Shown here one piece after another: positions 1 through 6,280 of a DNA stretch of 64,000 bases. Below the pieces are notes generated by a model. That model saw nothing but the letters and a program-made list of their open reading frames with translations, was not told the DNA's origin and did no database searches. A program made the position numbers and the translations under genes. The DNA comes from Caulobacteraceae bacterium (GTDB taxonomy: Bacteria; Pseudomonadota; Alphaproteobacteria; Caulobacterales; Caulobacteraceae): positions 1 to 64,000 of the forward strand of contig CANJPZ010000003.1 in assembly GCA_947476325.1 (NCBI GenBank), read 5' to 3'. Each line of letters starts with the position of its first letter. Within the stretch, counting starts at the first letter, position 1.

Positions 1-2438
1 CAAACGGCCTGAATGCGACGGCCACAGGTAATGCGGCCAACGCCACGGGCGCCAATGCGACCGCGGGCGGCACCACCAGTGTCGCCAACGGGGCCAACGC
101 CACGGCGTCGGGCGCAAGCTCGCTGGCCAACGGCGCCTTCGCTACGGCGGCGGGTTCTTCGTCCATCGCCAACGGCGCAGGTGCAACGGCTGACGGTGTC
201 TCGTCCCTGGCCGCCGGCGCCAACGCCACGGCCCTGGGCTCCAGCTCGAACGCCACCGGCGCTCAGGCTACGGCGGCGGGTAATGCTTCGCTCGCCAACG
301 GCGCCAATGCGACGGCCACAGGTAATGCGGCCAACGCCACGGGCGCCAACGCCACGGCCGGCGGCACCAACAGCGTCGCCAACGGCGCCAACGCCACGGC
401 TTCGGGCGCTTCCTCCCTTGCCAACGGTCAGTTCGCTACGGCGGCCGGCTCTTCGTCCATCGCCAATGGCGCGGGCGCAACGGCAGACGGTGTTTCGTCC
501 CTGGCCGCCGGCACCAACGCTACGGCCCTGGGCTCCAGCTCGAACGCCACCGGCGCTCAGGCCACGGCTTCGGGTAACGCGGCTCTCGCCAACGGCGCCA
601 ATGCTTCGGCCTTCGGTAATGCGGCCAACGCGGCCGGCGCTAACGCCACTTCGGTCGGCACCAACGGTCTGGCCAGCGGCGCCAACGCCACGGCTCTGGG
701 CGCAAGCTCGAACGCCACGGGCACGTTCGCCACGGCGGGCGGCTCGGGCAGCCGGGCGATCGGAAACGGGGCTACGGCGGATGGTACGTCATCCTTCGCC
801 AACGGGGCCAATGCTTCGGCCTTCGGCTCCAGCGCCCTGGCCCAGGGCTCCAGCGCCACCTCGATCGGTGATCTGTCCCAGGCACTCGGCAACCACGCGG
901 TTGCGGTCGGCGCGGGCGATCCGACCATCGCCAACGGCGTAAGCGCCACGGCGGTCGGCAACGACGCCAACGCTCAGGGCGCCAATGCAACGGCGCTCGG
1001 CGCCTTCGCCTTCGCCAACGGCGCCAACGCCACCGCAGGCGGCACGAGCAGTGTCGCCAACGGCGCCAACGCCACCGCGTCAGGCGCAAGCGCCACGGCG
1101 AACGGCCAGTTCGCTTCGGCGACCGGCTCTTCGTCCATCGCCAATGGCGCGGGTGCCACGGCCGCCGGCGTGTCCAGTGTCGCGGCCGGCGCCAACGCTG
1201 TCGCGGTCGGCTCCAGCGCCAACGCTACCGGTGCCAACGCTTCGGCCCTCGGCAACGCGGCTGTCGCCAATGGCGCCAACGCTTCGGCTACCGGAAACGG
1301 GGCCAACGCGACGGGCGCCAACGCTGTGGCTTCCGGCTCCCTGGCCATCGCCAACGGCGCAACCGCCACGGCGGTCGGCGCAGGCGCCAACGCCACCGGG
1401 GCTTCGGCCACGGCGCTCGGCGCAGGCGCTACGACGGCAGGCCTGGCCAATGCGGTCGCTCTGGGCTCCAGCTCGGTCGCCGTAGTCTCCAGCAACATCG
1501 CCTCCGGCGCGGTTGGCCTGAACAACTCACCCGCATTTGCCGGAACCCTGGCGACCGGTTCGGATCGGGTGGTCTCGGTGGGATCGGTGGGCAATACCCG
1601 CCAGATCACCAACGTGGCTCCGGGTCTGGTAAGCTCGACCTCCACCGACGCGATCAACGGCTCGCAGCTGTCGACCCTCAACGACCAGGTCGACGAACTG
1701 GGCCGCGACACGGCGGCGACCTTCGGCGCCGGAACGACCTACGATCCGGCGACCGGCGTCCTGGCCAACTCGTCCTTCGTGACCTACGGCTCGAACGTGC
1801 CTCCGGGTAACAACGTCGGCAACGTTGGAACCGCCCTGGATCGCATCGTCAATCTGGGACCGGTTCAGTTCTCGAACCCGCTCACGCCCACCACGGGCAA
1901 CGGGGGCCAGCGCACCAACAGCGTCACGCTGGCGGGCCTGACCTCCGGTGCGGTCACCCTGAACAACGTCGCGGCCGGCGCGGTCAACTCAACCTCCAAC
2001 CAGGCCATCAACGGCACCCAGCTGTACCAGACCGCGACCTCCACGGCCGCGGCCCTGGGCGGCGGATCGACGGCGGTCGGCGGCACCAGCGGGGCCATCA
2101 CGGCGCCGACCTATTCGGTGCAGGGTCTGAACTACAACAACGTCGGATCGGCGATCGCCGCCCTGGACGGCACGGTGTCTTCGAACTTCATCCGCACCAA
2201 TGCCGGTATCGCTTCGGCGATGGCGGCGGGTGCCCTGCAGTTCGACGCAGCACCCGGTCAGGTGTCCATCTCGGGCGCTGTTTCGGCCTACAACGGCCAG
2301 AGCGGACTGGCCATCGGCCTGGGCGGCGTCAGCGCCGACGGGACGTGGCGCTACTCGGTCACGGGCTCGATGTCCAACGCCCAGGGCCACAGCCAGGGTG
2401 GCGGCGCAGTGTCGGTCACCCATACGTTCGGCAAATAG
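1..2438 (+). CDS. trimeric autotransporter adhesin (YadA/Hia type), 5' end missing
   Basis: The frame is already open at base 3, so the signal peptide and N-terminal head lie outside the window. About 490 residues of head made of 14-residue units of the form A-x-A-x-G-x-x-A-x-x-x-G, rich in Ala, Gly and Asn, are followed by two neck motifs (ITNVAPG...DAINGSQL and LNNVAAG...QAINGTQL). A stalk segment leads to a C-terminal anchor of about 70 residues with the signature IASAMA, then ending in Phe-Lys as barrel strands do. The family forms homotrimers whose anchor makes a 12-stranded outer-membrane barrel and displays the head for adhesion. NAT and NAS tripeptides are very frequent in the head. 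The family assignment is firm; the ligand is unknown. Confidence 0.93.
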   Translation, partial: NGLNATATGNAANATGANATAGGTTSVANGANATASGASSLANGAFATAAGSSSIANGAGATADGVSSLAAGANATALGSSSNATGAQATAAGNASLANGANATATGNAANATGANATAGGTNSVANGANATASGASSLANGQFATAAGSSSIANGAGATADGVSSLAAGTNATALGSSSNATGAQATASGNAALANGANASAFGNAANAAGANATSVGTNGLASGANATALGASSNATGTFATAGGSGSRAIGNGATADGTSSFANGANASAFGSSALAQGSSATSIGDLSQALGNHAVAVGAGDPTIANGVSATAVGNDANAQGANATALGAFAFANGANATAGGTSSVANGANATASGASATANGQFASATGSSSIANGAGATAAGVSSVAAGANAVAVGSSANATGANASALGNAAVANGANASATGNGANATGANAVASGSLAIANGATATAVGAGANATGASATALGAGATTAGLANAVALGSSSVAVVSSNIASGAVGLNNSPAFAGTLATGSDRVVSVGSVGNTRQITNVAPGLVSSTSTDAINGSQLSTLNDQVDELGRDTAATFGAGTTYDPATGVLANSSFVTYGSNVPPGNNVGNVGTALDRIVNLGPVQFSNPLTPTTGNGGQRTNSVTLAGLTSGAVTLNNVAAGAVNSTSNQAINGTQLYQTATSTAAALGGGSTAVGGTSGAITAPTYSVQGLNYNNVGSAIAALDGTVSSNFIRTNAGIASAMAAGALQFDAAPGQVSISGAVSAYNGQSGLAIGLGGVSADGTWRYSVTGSMSNAQGHSQGGGAVSVTHTFGK
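12..599 (+). repeat. 294-bp tandem super-repeat inside the adhesin head
   Basis: Two long near-identical units begin at 12 and 306, exactly 294 bp apart, and a third more diverged unit begins at 600. One unit is 98 codons, seven 14-residue head repeats. A later related stretch near 1038 is offset by two residues from the 42-bp register. Exact in-frame spacing means unequal recombination would change head length without a frameshift. Confidence 0.8.
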
Positions 2439-2459: not shown

Positions 2460-2498
2460 CCGGCCAGGTTGCGGGAAGCCGCAATCTGGCCGGTTTGG
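2460..2498 (+). terminator. strong hairpin after the adhesin gene
   Basis: A 15-bp stem (2460-2474 with 2479-2493, one G-U pair) closes a 4-nt GAAG loop and is followed by only three T residues. The stem strength and its place 22 bp after the adhesin stop fit transcription termination, although the T run is short. Confidence 0.65.
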
Positions 2499-2572: not shown

Positions 2573-3355
2573 ATGCTGCCTGACTCGGCCCTTCGCGACA
2601 TGAAGGTCATGTTCGCCACGCCCTGCTATATTTCAGCAGTCAGCATGAACTATGTGACCAGTGTCTTCAGCCTGACCGCCGAGTCCATGCGGTTTGGACT
2701 GACCTCACTGTTGCACATGCACTCCGAGAGCCTGATCACCCGCGGTCGCAACAAGATGGTCATTGAATTCCTGGAGCGCAGCGAATTCACCCACCTGTTC
2801 TGGCTCGATTCCGATATCGCCTTTGATCCGAAGTCGGTGTTCCGCATCCTGCTGGCCGACCGTGATGTCGCCGCCGGCGTCTATCCGATGAAGAAGATGA
2901 ACTGGCCGGATGAAGGCCTGCCCCAGGGCATGACCCGCGAGCAGTTCGAGATCCAGTACACGGACTATCCGTTCAATCCGATCGCTCATGGCAAGGAGCC
3001 GGTCGGCAAGTATGTGGACGCCGACGGGTTCGTCGAGGTCGCCGAGGCGCCCACGGGCTTTATGTGCATCAAGCGTCAGGTGATCCTGGACATGATGAAG
3101 CATTATCCCGAACTGAACTACACGCCCGATGGCCCTCCGGGTCATCCCCAGGCGCATCTGCACTATCTTTTGTTCGATTGCATGGTTGATCCCGATTCTG
3201 GCCGCTATCTTTCGGAAGACTACGCGTTCTGCCGCCGCTGGCGGGATATGGGAGGCAAGATATGGGTCGATCTGCATTCACAGCTGATGCATCTGGGCCA
3301 GCACAATTACCGGGGCAACCTGGGCGCCAGCCTCACCGCGCAAGGGCGCATGTAG
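2573..3355 (+). CDS. putative GT-A type glycosyltransferase
   Basis: This 260-residue soluble protein has an N-terminal TPCY segment, an SLITRGRNKMV segment and then a hydrophobic strand ending in LDSDIAF (about residues 81-87), a DxD-like metal/nucleotide-sugar site typical of GT-A folds. A later LSEDYAFCRRW segment resembles the catalytic ED motif of GT2-like enzymes. An AGGA ribosome site lies 8 nt before the ATG. It follows the adhesin gene on the same strand, with a terminator-like hairpin between them. Donor and acceptor cannot be read from the sequence; action on the neighbouring adhesin or on surface polysaccharide is inference. Confidence 0.6.
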   Translation: MLPDSALRDMKVMFATPCYISAVSMNYVTSVFSLTAESMRFGLTSLLHMHSESLITRGRNKMVIEFLERSEFTHLFWLDSDIAFDPKSVFRILLADRDVAAGVYPMKKMNWPDEGLPQGMTREQFEIQYTDYPFNPIAHGKEPVGKYVDADGFVEVAEAPTGFMCIKRQVILDMMKHYPELNYTPDGPPGHPQAHLHYLLFDCMVDPDSGRYLSEDYAFCRRWRDMGGKIWVDLHSQLMHLGQHNYRGNLGASLTAQGRM

Positions 3356-3888
3356 CCCTGCTCTGCGCCGTCCTGATGGGGGCGGCGGCCACAGGTCACG
3401 GCGACGCCCAGATTCTCAAGGGTTTGCAGCAGATCGCACCGGCAGGCGCAGCCCAGACGCCGGCCCAGGAAGCGGCCGCTCATGGCTTGCGCCAGTGCGG
3501 CGGGATCATCGACAAGATGGTCAGCAACTCCGTCAACGGTGACAATGCCCAGTCCTCAATGTGGCGTACCCAGGATGCGGACAAGCACATCTTCCAGTCG
3601 GTAATTGGCATCAGTCAGCCCGGAACCCCGCCCGATGCCTTGGCGGCGATCATTTCGGCTCCCCTGGGCAACGGAACCTGTGACGGCGCGGCGGTTGGCA
3701 TCTATCCGCTCGCCGTCGACTGCACGACCGCCGAGGCGGCGGTTAAGAACGGCGGCCGGCTGTTGTTCATGCTGCGCAATTCGCGAGTCATGCTCGACGC
3801 CAACAACGAGCGGCTGTTCCTGCTGCCGGGCGCCAACAACACCTGTATCGCCGTAGCCGTGAAGAGCTATTTCCAGGGCGACCCCTAG
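3262..3888 (+). CDS. putative exported protein of unknown function
   Basis: The mature part (about 165 residues) is Ala/Gly/Asn rich and has cysteines near QCGG, GTCDG, VDCTT and NTCIA, which could form disulfides in the periplasm. A hydrophobic stretch HVALLCAVLMGAAA followed by GHGDAQ looks like a signal peptide core and cleavage region. The start is uncertain: ATG 3262 gives 208 residues and overlaps the upstream gene by 94 bp, while ATG 3376 would cut into the signal peptide. No standard start codon lies just before the hydrophobic core. No family is recognised. Confidence 0.55.
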   Translation: MGRSAFTADASGPAQLPGQPGRQPHRARAHVALLCAVLMGAAATGHGDAQILKGLQQIAPAGAAQTPAQEAAAHGLRQCGGIIDKMVSNSVNGDNAQSSMWRTQDADKHIFQSVIGISQPGTPPDALAAIISAPLGNGTCDGAAVGIYPLAVDCTTAEAAVKNGGRLLFMLRNSRVMLDANNERLFLLPGANNTCIAVAVKSYFQGDP

Positions 3889-4018: not shown

Positions 4019-6280
4019 ATGGTCCTAGGCCCGCTCAGCTTGAGGGGACCCCGCAGCCTGCTTCGGCAGATTCGCGAGGCCATGGCCAGCAATGCGCCTG
4101 CCCAGGCGCGGCTGGACATGGTCGTGCGCATCATTGCCCGCTCGATGGTCGCCGAGGTGTGCTCGATCTATCTGCGCCGGGCCGATGGCGACGCCGAACT
4201 GTTCGCCACCGAAGGTCTGTCGGCCGCCGCTGTTCACGTCACCACCCTGAAGCGCGGTGAAGGTCTGGTCGGCGAGGTCATGAAACTGGGCCGGCCGGTC
4301 AATTTGTCTGACGCGCCCAGCCATCCGGCCTTCGCCTACCGGCCGGAAACCGGCGAAGATCCCTATCACGCCTTTCTCGGTGTGCCGCTGCTGCGCGGCG
4401 GGCGGGCGATCGGCGTACTGGTCGTTCAGAACCGCACGGAGCGCAGCTACACCGACGACGAGGTCGAGGACCTGCAGATCATCGCCATGGTGCTGGCCGA
4501 AATGGTGGCCGGCGAGGGTGTCGGCGAAAGCGCGCTCAAGGGCGTCGACATCGCCCCGCACAAGCCCGAGCGGATCAAGGGGGTGCGCCTGGCTGAAGGC
4601 CTGGCCTATGGCGTGGTCGTTCTGCACGAACGGCCCGTCGCCGCCAGCAAGCTGCTCTCCGATGACGCCGAGGCCGAAGAGGTGCGCCTGACCGCAGCGA
4701 TCAAGACGTTGCAGGAACAGATCGATTCCATGATGGACGGCCAGCACGGTCTGGTCGGCGCCTCGTTTGACGTGCTGGAAACCTACCGGATGTTCGCCCA
4801 CGATCGCGGCTGGAACCGCAGTCTGGTCGAGGCCGTCCGTGACGGCATGACCGCCGAGGCCGCCGTGGAGCGTACGCGCTCGGAACACCGTGCGCGGCTG
4901 GGGCAGGCGCGTGATCCGTACCTGCGCGAGCGTCTGCACGACCTGGAAGACCTGAACGACCGTCTGCTGCGTCACCTGGCGGGCGATGGCGCCGAAGAGC
5001 CGGCCTTGCCAGATAACGCCATTCTGGTGGCGCGCAATCTCGGACCGGCGGAACTGCTGGAATATGACCGCACAAAGTTGCGCGGCATTCTGCTGGAGGA
5101 AGGCTCGACGGCCAGCCACGCCGCGATCGTGGCCCGGGCGCTGGACATTCCATGCATTGGTCGGCTGGACCACCTGCGCGACCAGGTGTCGGAGGGCGAT
5201 CCGGTTGTCGTCGACGCCGAAAATGCCGAAGCCTTTCTTCGTCCGCGGCTTGACGTCATTACCGCGATCAAGGCCCGGATCGAGGTTCGCCAGCAGCGTA
5301 AGGCCGAATTCCAGAAGTTGCGCGACACCCCGGCGATCAGCAAGGACGGCGTGCGGGTTACGCTGCTGATGAACGCGGGTCTGGATGTCGACCTGCAACT
5401 GTTGTCTGAGGTCGGCGCCGAAGGCATTGGCCTGTTCCGCACCGAATTCCAGTTCATGGTCGCCGAGGAACTGCCGCGCTTCAACGCCCAGGCTGATTTA
5501 TATCGCCGGGTGCTGGATGCGGCGGGCGATCTGCCGGTTACGTTCCGCACGCTCGATCTGGGGGGCGACAAGATTTTGCCCTACATGGAGGCTGAGCGCG
5601 AAGACAATCCGGCGCTGGGCTGGCGCGCCGTGCGCATGGGTCTGGACCGTCCGGCCCTTTTGCGGCTGCAATTGAGGGCCCTGATTGCCGCCTCACGCGG
5701 CCGGTCACTGCGCATCATGTTCCCGCTGATCAGCAATGTGGACGAGTTCCGCGCCGCTCGAAGCTATGTCGATCAGGAGGTCGCCTGGGCCGAGCGCCGC
5801 GGCCGGCCCGCGCCCAGCCGCCTCGACGTCGGCGCGATGATCGAGGCGCCGGCCTTGCTCTTCCATCTGGATGCGCTGCTGCGGCTGGTGGATTTTGTTT
5901 CAGTCGGCACCAACGATCTGATGCAGTACCTGTTCGCCGCCGACAGGGGCAATCCGCGCACCGCCGATCGTTATGATCCCCTGTCGCCGCCCGCCTTGCG
6001 CGCGCTTAAACAAATCCAGATCGCCTGCGCCAGCAACGGTACGCCGGTGTCGGTATGCGGCGAAATGGCTGGCCGCACACTGGAAGCGTTCGCGCTGATG
6101 GCCCTGGGGTACGAGCGGCTTTCCATGCCACCTGCCGGCATTGGTCCCGTCAAGCGCATGGTGCTGAGCTGTGATCGCGAGGCGGCGGCCCGGGGCCTTC
6201 AAAGCCTGCTGGAGCGATCGGCCGGATCGGTCCGCAACGAGGTCGAAACCCTCGCGCGCAAGCTCTACGTCTCGCTTTAA
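4019..6280 (+). CDS. ptsP: phosphoenolpyruvate-protein phosphotransferase, nitrogen PTS enzyme I
   Basis: EI-Ntr takes phosphate from PEP and passes it to NPr (PtsO) and then EIIA-Ntr, a regulatory cascade in the cytosol sensing nitrogen and, in Caulobacter, affecting (p)ppGpp. The 753-residue length matches the family. An N-terminal GAF domain (about 20-165) precedes the phosphohistidine domain with GSTASH at H367, and the C-terminal PEP-binding barrel has LDLGGDK and the catalytic CGEMAG cysteine at C680. The ATG is preceded by GAGGAGA. A TATAGC box lies about 33 bp upstream of the start. The gene appears monocistronic. Confidence 0.95.
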   Translation: MVLGPLSLRGPRSLLRQIREAMASNAPAQARLDMVVRIIARSMVAEVCSIYLRRADGDAELFATEGLSAAAVHVTTLKRGEGLVGEVMKLGRPVNLSDAPSHPAFAYRPETGEDPYHAFLGVPLLRGGRAIGVLVVQNRTERSYTDDEVEDLQIIAMVLAEMVAGEGVGESALKGVDIAPHKPERIKGVRLAEGLAYGVVVLHERPVAASKLLSDDAEAEEVRLTAAIKTLQEQIDSMMDGQHGLVGASFDVLETYRMFAHDRGWNRSLVEAVRDGMTAEAAVERTRSEHRARLGQARDPYLRERLHDLEDLNDRLLRHLAGDGAEEPALPDNAILVARNLGPAELLEYDRTKLRGILLEEGSTASHAAIVARALDIPCIGRLDHLRDQVSEGDPVVVDAENAEAFLRPRLDVITAIKARIEVRQQRKAEFQKLRDTPAISKDGVRVTLLMNAGLDVDLQLLSEVGAEGIGLFRTEFQFMVAEELPRFNAQADLYRRVLDAAGDLPVTFRTLDLGGDKILPYMEAEREDNPALGWRAVRMGLDRPALLRLQLRALIAASRGRSLRIMFPLISNVDEFRAARSYVDQEVAWAERRGRPAPSRLDVGAMIEAPALLFHLDALLRLVDFVSVGTNDLMQYLFAADRGNPRTADRYDPLSPPALRALKQIQIACASNGTPVSVCGEMAGRTLEAFALMALGYERLSMPPAGIGPVKRMVLSCDREAAARGLQSLLERSAGSVRNEVETLARKLYVSL

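Follow-up and report, generated by a model that had tools for sequence, protein, structure and literature searches.

A GT-A-fold glycosyltransferase gene linked to trimeric autotransporter adhesins, and a candidate acceptor strand in the adhesin head

The adhesin locus

The window, the whole stretch of 64,000 nucleotides analyzed here, opens contig C3 in a genome of 2.65 Mb and has a GC content of 66%. The features at its beginning are the following.

3..2438, forward strand: trimeric autotransporter adhesin (TAA), C-terminal part of 811 residues, 5' end lost at the contig edge (Pfam)
3..1472, forward strand: YadA-like head of 14-residue left-handed parallel beta-roll (LPBR) layers, 26 sequons (repeat analysis)
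39..1397, forward strand: eight predicted outward N12-x-T14 sequons (strand from the hydrophobic residue at position 7, orientation from LPBR rules)
39, 249, 333, 543, 711, 1221, 1305 and 1389, forward strand: Asn codon starts of these outer N12-x-T14 sequons (strand assignment)
2460..2493, forward strand: 15-bp stem-loop 3' of the adhesin stop, probable terminator (read by eye)
2573..3355, forward strand: GT-A-fold glycosyltransferase of 260 residues (phrog_1574 match, AF2 model, Foldseek)
3262..3888, forward strand: orf3, a short protein of secreted appearance that contains four cysteines; its start is uncertain (sequence reading)

The first reading frame matches Pfam YadA_head (5e-23), YadA_stalk (3e-12) and YadA_anchor (2e-6), all above cut-off, and judged by these matches its product is a type Vc TAA with head, stalk and anchor. 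Contig C7 ends in the N-terminal part of the adhesin (L027 7018–8886, 623 residues, 25 sequons), and there a signal-like stretch ending in AHA was read by eye upstream of the head; the stretch joining C7 to C3 is unassembled, and some of the head is missing between the two parts. A plasmid search with the adhesin head as query gave no match.

The adhesin is flanked upstream by what we take to be lysC (L027 5508–6755) and the enzyme side by what we take to be ptsP (4019–6280 in the window), both named by reading the sequences, without a family search. In genome G002 of the same genus and in many other relatives lysC lies directly upstream of ptsP, and G002 is without the adhesin–enzyme–orf3 insertion. 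Because lysC and ptsP are neighbors in relatives, contigs C7 and C3 most likely join inside the adhesin. The window genome (G000) carries TAA, enzyme and orf3 between lysC and ptsP, and in G001 a contig-cut TAA, the enzyme and orf3 precede ptsP, the insertion being seen at least on the ptsP side. From this gene order, adhesin, glycosyltransferase and orf3 are most likely a joint insertion between lysC and ptsP. The lysC–adhesin intergenic region (L027 6756–7017) is A+T-rich, with 41% GC compared to 66% for the window, which would fit a promoter region that was inserted or is under special regulation. Two tandem TAAs with few sequons (0.9–1.3 per 100 residues) and almost no outer-strand Asn12 are found at a different site in G002 (L206 7088–12306), where the enzyme is absent.

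The stem-loop is probably the terminator of the adhesin gene. The sister genome retains it, with bases changed (L061 2335–2375, within the region L061 2300–2480 read by eye); a simple terminator scan did not report the copy at 2460–2493. A conserved hairpin between TAA and enzyme suggests separate transcripts, so that co-transcription may not occur and a separate promoter for the enzyme is likely.

No Pfam or NCBIfam match was obtained for orf3. Its homologues (66% in G001; 41–44% in L252 10937–11329 and L254 10690–11076) adjoin the enzyme in G844 and G915. Found with enzyme and adhesin in three lineages, orf3 may assist assembly or export. Another possible TAA accessory is a proline/alanine-rich, secreted-looking protein located after TAAs at L062 10483–11253 (G794) and at L102 2552–2899 (a Caulobacteraceae genome), with 45% identity.

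Family and fold of the enzyme

The DxD-like LDSDIAF and the ED motif pointed out in the initial annotation are both present in the enzyme, the DxD being coded at 2807–2815 and the ED (SEDYAFC) at 3215–3220, and residues D79, D81, E215, D216 and the C-terminal H240 are invariant in 57 homologous sequences. An AlphaFold2 model (pLDDT 91, pTM 0.90) was compared with solved folds using Foldseek. STIV A197 ranks first (E 1e-8), ahead of the glycosyltransferase portion of human LH3 (E 6e-8), and further GT-A enzymes come after these two; protein O-glycosylating domains, namely those of LH3 (a collagen-lysine glycosyltransferase) and POMGNT1, are among the near folds. By its motifs and the fold match of the model, the product is a GT-A-fold glycosyltransferase, in line with the earlier impression that it looks GT-A rather than HMW1C-like. 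Inspection by eye revealed neither a signal peptide nor a membrane segment.

Family scores, which the initial annotation had proposed to compare, place the enzyme with phrog_1574 (E 3.4e-40; residues 6–245 of 260 on profile positions 9–233 of 240), a phage family without assigned function, and many relatives of the enzyme lie on viral contigs. Nothing in Pfam or NCBIfam exceeds the cut-off. The sole sub-threshold Pfam matches are Anp1 and Glyco_transf_21, with GT2 (Glycos_transf_2) not among them; there is no HMW1C/GT41 match in Pfam down to E 1, nor a heptosyltransferase-type match, as in the BAHT enzymes, in Pfam or NCBIfam. HMW1C_N gave no match in a search of the enzyme's own genome, although the control set was silent too.

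For the glycosylation of autotransporters in the cytoplasm, a review describes just two mechanisms, NGT and BAHT (PMC8151025). NGTs (GT41, HMW1C-like) are cytoplasmic and modify N-x-S/T acceptors in the type V adhesins HMW1A, EtpA or the TAA Knh (PMC8151025, PMC9592894). The present enzyme would resemble them in being dedicated to, or acting on, a type V adhesin, and Knh is itself a TAA with a YadA-like head. NGTs, however, are GT-B enzymes of another family, whereas for the present GT-A enzyme the acceptor is a prediction. The analogy to HMW1C-type N-glycosyltransferases drawn at the outset thus fails on fold and family, and HMW1C/GT41 identity is excluded by the lack of a family match and a model that is GT-A, not GT-B. 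The BAHT enzymes TibC and Aah are dedicated enzymes encoded beside autotransporters and produce rows of sugars on a beta-helix surface (PMC8151025). They share with the present locus an adjoining enzyme gene and, as predicted here, rows on a repeat surface, but they put heptose on Ser/Thr and belong to an unrelated family to which our enzyme has no sequence or fold match; BAHT identity was likewise excluded, by the missing family match and the GT-A fold.

NleB and SseK have the GT-A fold and provide a precedent for GT-A enzymes that make N-linked protein sugars. A review describes both as arginine N-glycosyltransferases (PMC7142665). They differ from the present enzyme in their arginine acceptor and in being injected effectors, and no sequence relation to it was found. 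STIV A197 may glycosylate the coat protein of its virus, according to PMC10551542, and the likeness of the enzyme to phrog_1574 and STIV A197 lies in the family match (E 3e-40) and the GT-A fold. The phage member of phrog_1574 examined in detail (L133) is located within a virion gene block, whereas the present clade is chromosomal and TAA-linked. About 1.5 kb downstream of that family member is a fibre-like protein with NTTG/NTAVG repeats and 36 sequons (L133 7333–9570). A general phage pattern of sequon-rich neighbors was considered and dropped, as such a fibre-like protein was seen at only one viral locus.

Linkage of the enzyme clade to adhesins

The close relatives of the enzyme (62–91% identical to the window protein) form one clade with support 100/100. 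The clade comprises nine loci (the window, G001, G794, G844, G1128, G915, G944, G992 and G1010) and spans two orders, since all except the window and G001 belong to the order of the Roseiarcaceae record. A TAA lies within 3 kb in six of the nine (the window, G001, G844, G1128, G794 and G915), compared to none near 60 distant homologues (Fisher 7e-7), a zero also stated for 1.5 kb; at the 1.5 kb limit the ratio is 4/9 to 0/60 (p 1.5e-4). The co-occurrence with sequon-rich adhesins that the initial annotation had suggested looking for is found within the clade, where the linked heads carry 2.4–7.1 sequons per 100 residues, and not among the distant homologues, which were dropped as support for the link. 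Gene order varies: the TAA is upstream in g1 and G1128 and downstream in G794, and orf3 lies in between in G844 and G915; relative orientations of TAA and enzyme also differ among the linked loci. Linked TAAs have anchors that are polyphyletic and not one clade (AU p 8e-4), so adhesins of different lineages have come to be paired with the enzyme. These neighborhoods support an enzyme–adhesin link beyond expectation.

The same comparison bears on the proposal that the enzyme stands near TAAs by chance or through a shared island, being either an enzyme for another glycan, such as LPS or capsule, or a domesticated phage gene. Phages commonly carry the wider family, which is also scattered in Caulobacteraceae without TAAs, and a terminator-like hairpin separates adhesin and enzyme. 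Two clade members keep the enzyme with no TAA on a 37 kb contig (G944) or within about 100 kb (G992). Against this stand the linkage of 6/9 versus 0/60, the varied gene orders and the spread over two bacterial orders, and we consider the proposal quite unlikely. In G1010 the enzyme is truncated and no TAA was found nearby.

Asparagines on the outer strand and the predicted acceptor

The first 490 residues of the window adhesin contain 21 NAT and 5 NAS tripeptides, which are all the N-x-S/T sequons there and agree with the earlier estimate of about twenty NAT and several NAS; the remaining 321 residues contain five. Their regular placement in the 14-mer also holds, with an identity of 0.53 at lags 14 and 28 and with registers N3 and N12: 17 of the 26 sequons are inner-strand N3-x-S/T5 and eight are outer-strand N12-x-T14. 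Shuffling of residues yields 13.5 ± 3.1 sequons, fewer than the 26 observed, while a shuffle preserving both the repeat columns and the phase in the 14-mer yields 25.4 ± 2.2, so the total follows from the repeat composition. According to PMC9543794, positions 5 and 7 of the inner strand face the trimer core in left-handed beta-roll heads, and Asn at 3 and 10 of BpaC forms hydrogen-bond ladders; the inner N3-x-S/T5 sequons occupy structural positions.

BpaC, whose left-handed beta-roll head (PDB 7O23) is the nearest solved head by sequence (E 9e-31), is likewise sequon-rich through repeat composition. Its crystallized head fragment reaches 10.8 sequons per 100 residues. PMC9543794 places its Asn at 3, 7 and 10, and our count of the fragment has none at outer 12 or 14. 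Linked heads exceed the median of 1.24 sequons per 100 residues in 36 unlinked heads (p 3e-4), although one unlinked head reaches 5.2, inside the linked range. The raw sequon count was rejected as evidence, being explained by the repeat columns and surpassed in BpaC, and the abundance of NAT, most of it structural N3-x-T5, does not argue for glycosylation as the initial annotation had it. Asn content of the head is also higher in linked heads, but L082, an unlinked head rich in Asn, falls within their range, which is why counts were made position by position.

Of the two core positions, 7 is the more constrained one according to PMC9543794, and a hydrophobic residue there served to call the inner strands; a split using positions 5 and 7 together gave mixed classes, whereas position 7 alone gave clean ones. 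Solvent exposure of 12 and 14 is predicted from beta-strand alternation using the LPBR rules in the same text. Control heads came from Caulobacteraceae, five other Alphaproteobacteria and the BpaC fragment, with no Rhizobiales. In this outer-strand test, designed after the data had been seen, Asn stands at outer position 12 in 25–42% of layers in each of six linked heads (pooled 36%, versus 1.4% unlinked), and Asn12 or Asn14 is present in 50–80% of their layers versus 0–30% in 27 unlinked heads, with no overlap. At inner positions 5 and 7, Asn is nearly absent from linked and unlinked heads alike. Asn14 is also enriched in linked heads, mostly outside sequons. Only two phylogenetically independent pairs are available, both of which agree, a number with which significance cannot be reached.

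Ser/Thr14 is present in 55% of layers with Asn12, compared to 29% of those with another residue at 12 (p 5e-5), while inner Asn3 is uncoupled to Ser/Thr5 (0.81 versus 0.80). At heptad level the coupling holds for unique heptads stratified by genome (p 1e-5; p 9e-9 without G794), although heads evolve by repeat duplication and may share ancestry, so that heptads are not independent. In G794, where the strand call is ambiguous (hydrophobic-7 18% versus 17%), just two of 14 outer Asn12 are in sequons. The tripeptide thus arises from repeat composition in relatives without the enzyme for N3-x-T5, the outcome that the initial annotation had named as a refutation, and not for N12-x-T14.

The TAA identity, the GT-A fold with its catalytic motifs, the gene pairing, the joint insertion and the outer-strand Asn signature are computed features, and we give a probability of roughly one half to the reading that the enzyme is a GT-A glycosyltransferase dedicated to the neighboring TAA, which would modify the solvent-facing head strand, most probably at Asn12. 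The cytoplasmic enzyme would sugar the head ahead of export, targeting the solvent-facing strand of each beta-roll layer, with Asn12 (N12-A13-S/T14) the most probable acceptor and perhaps also Asn14, and the resulting rows of sugars along the fibre could stiffen it, protect it or alter its stickiness. What we infer beyond the computed features is that the enzyme acts catalytically on the adhesin and that Asn is the acceptor, together with the sugar donor and any consequence for adhesion. The shared adhesin-glycosylation function first suggested from NAT abundance loses that ground, and is now favored by the gene pair in two orders, the joint lysC–ptsP insertion and outward Asn only in linked heads.

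Asn is a plausible acceptor residue on this sequence pattern. That the enzyme instead glycosylates outward Ser/Thr at 12 and 14, with the Asn enrichment a by-product or recognition feature, seems unlikely to us. It would fit the O-glycosylating LH3 and POMGNT1 folds, the G794 Asn12 residues mostly outside sequons, and Ser/Thr at outer position 14 in 21–52% of linked layers, but unlinked heads are equal or higher there (33–100%), so that Asn, not Ser/Thr, marks linked heads. It is also unlikely, in our view, that the Asn/Thr rows serve structure or ligand binding (for example of ice or mineral) as the surface of one inherited head type, the enzyme being uninvolved. Repeats spread by duplication, which makes a head type inheritable as a block, and BpaC is known to have polar cores as well as Asn ladders, the latter at 3 and 10, where the consulted passages of PMC9543794 name no partner enzyme; this proposal nevertheless leaves the same enzyme clade beside TAAs of different anchor lineages unexplained, and no such heads occur among 26 unlinked TAAs of relatives.

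We know of no asparagine N-linking transferase with the GT-A fold. The full form of the dedicated-enzyme reading, in which a GT-A enzyme of phage-family origin N-glycosylates outward Asn12-x-Ser/Thr14 rows of beta-roll heads in Alphaproteobacteria, as a third, unrelated class of autotransporter glycosyltransferase and the first asparagine-modifying GT-A, is tentative and rather doubtful. If true, a GT-A enzyme paired with TAAs would make a third type beside NGT and BAHT, in environmental bacteria, and would suggest a function for the large phage family phrog_1574. With just two genes and a predicted acceptor array, the locus is a compact system open to simple co-expression and mass spectrometry.
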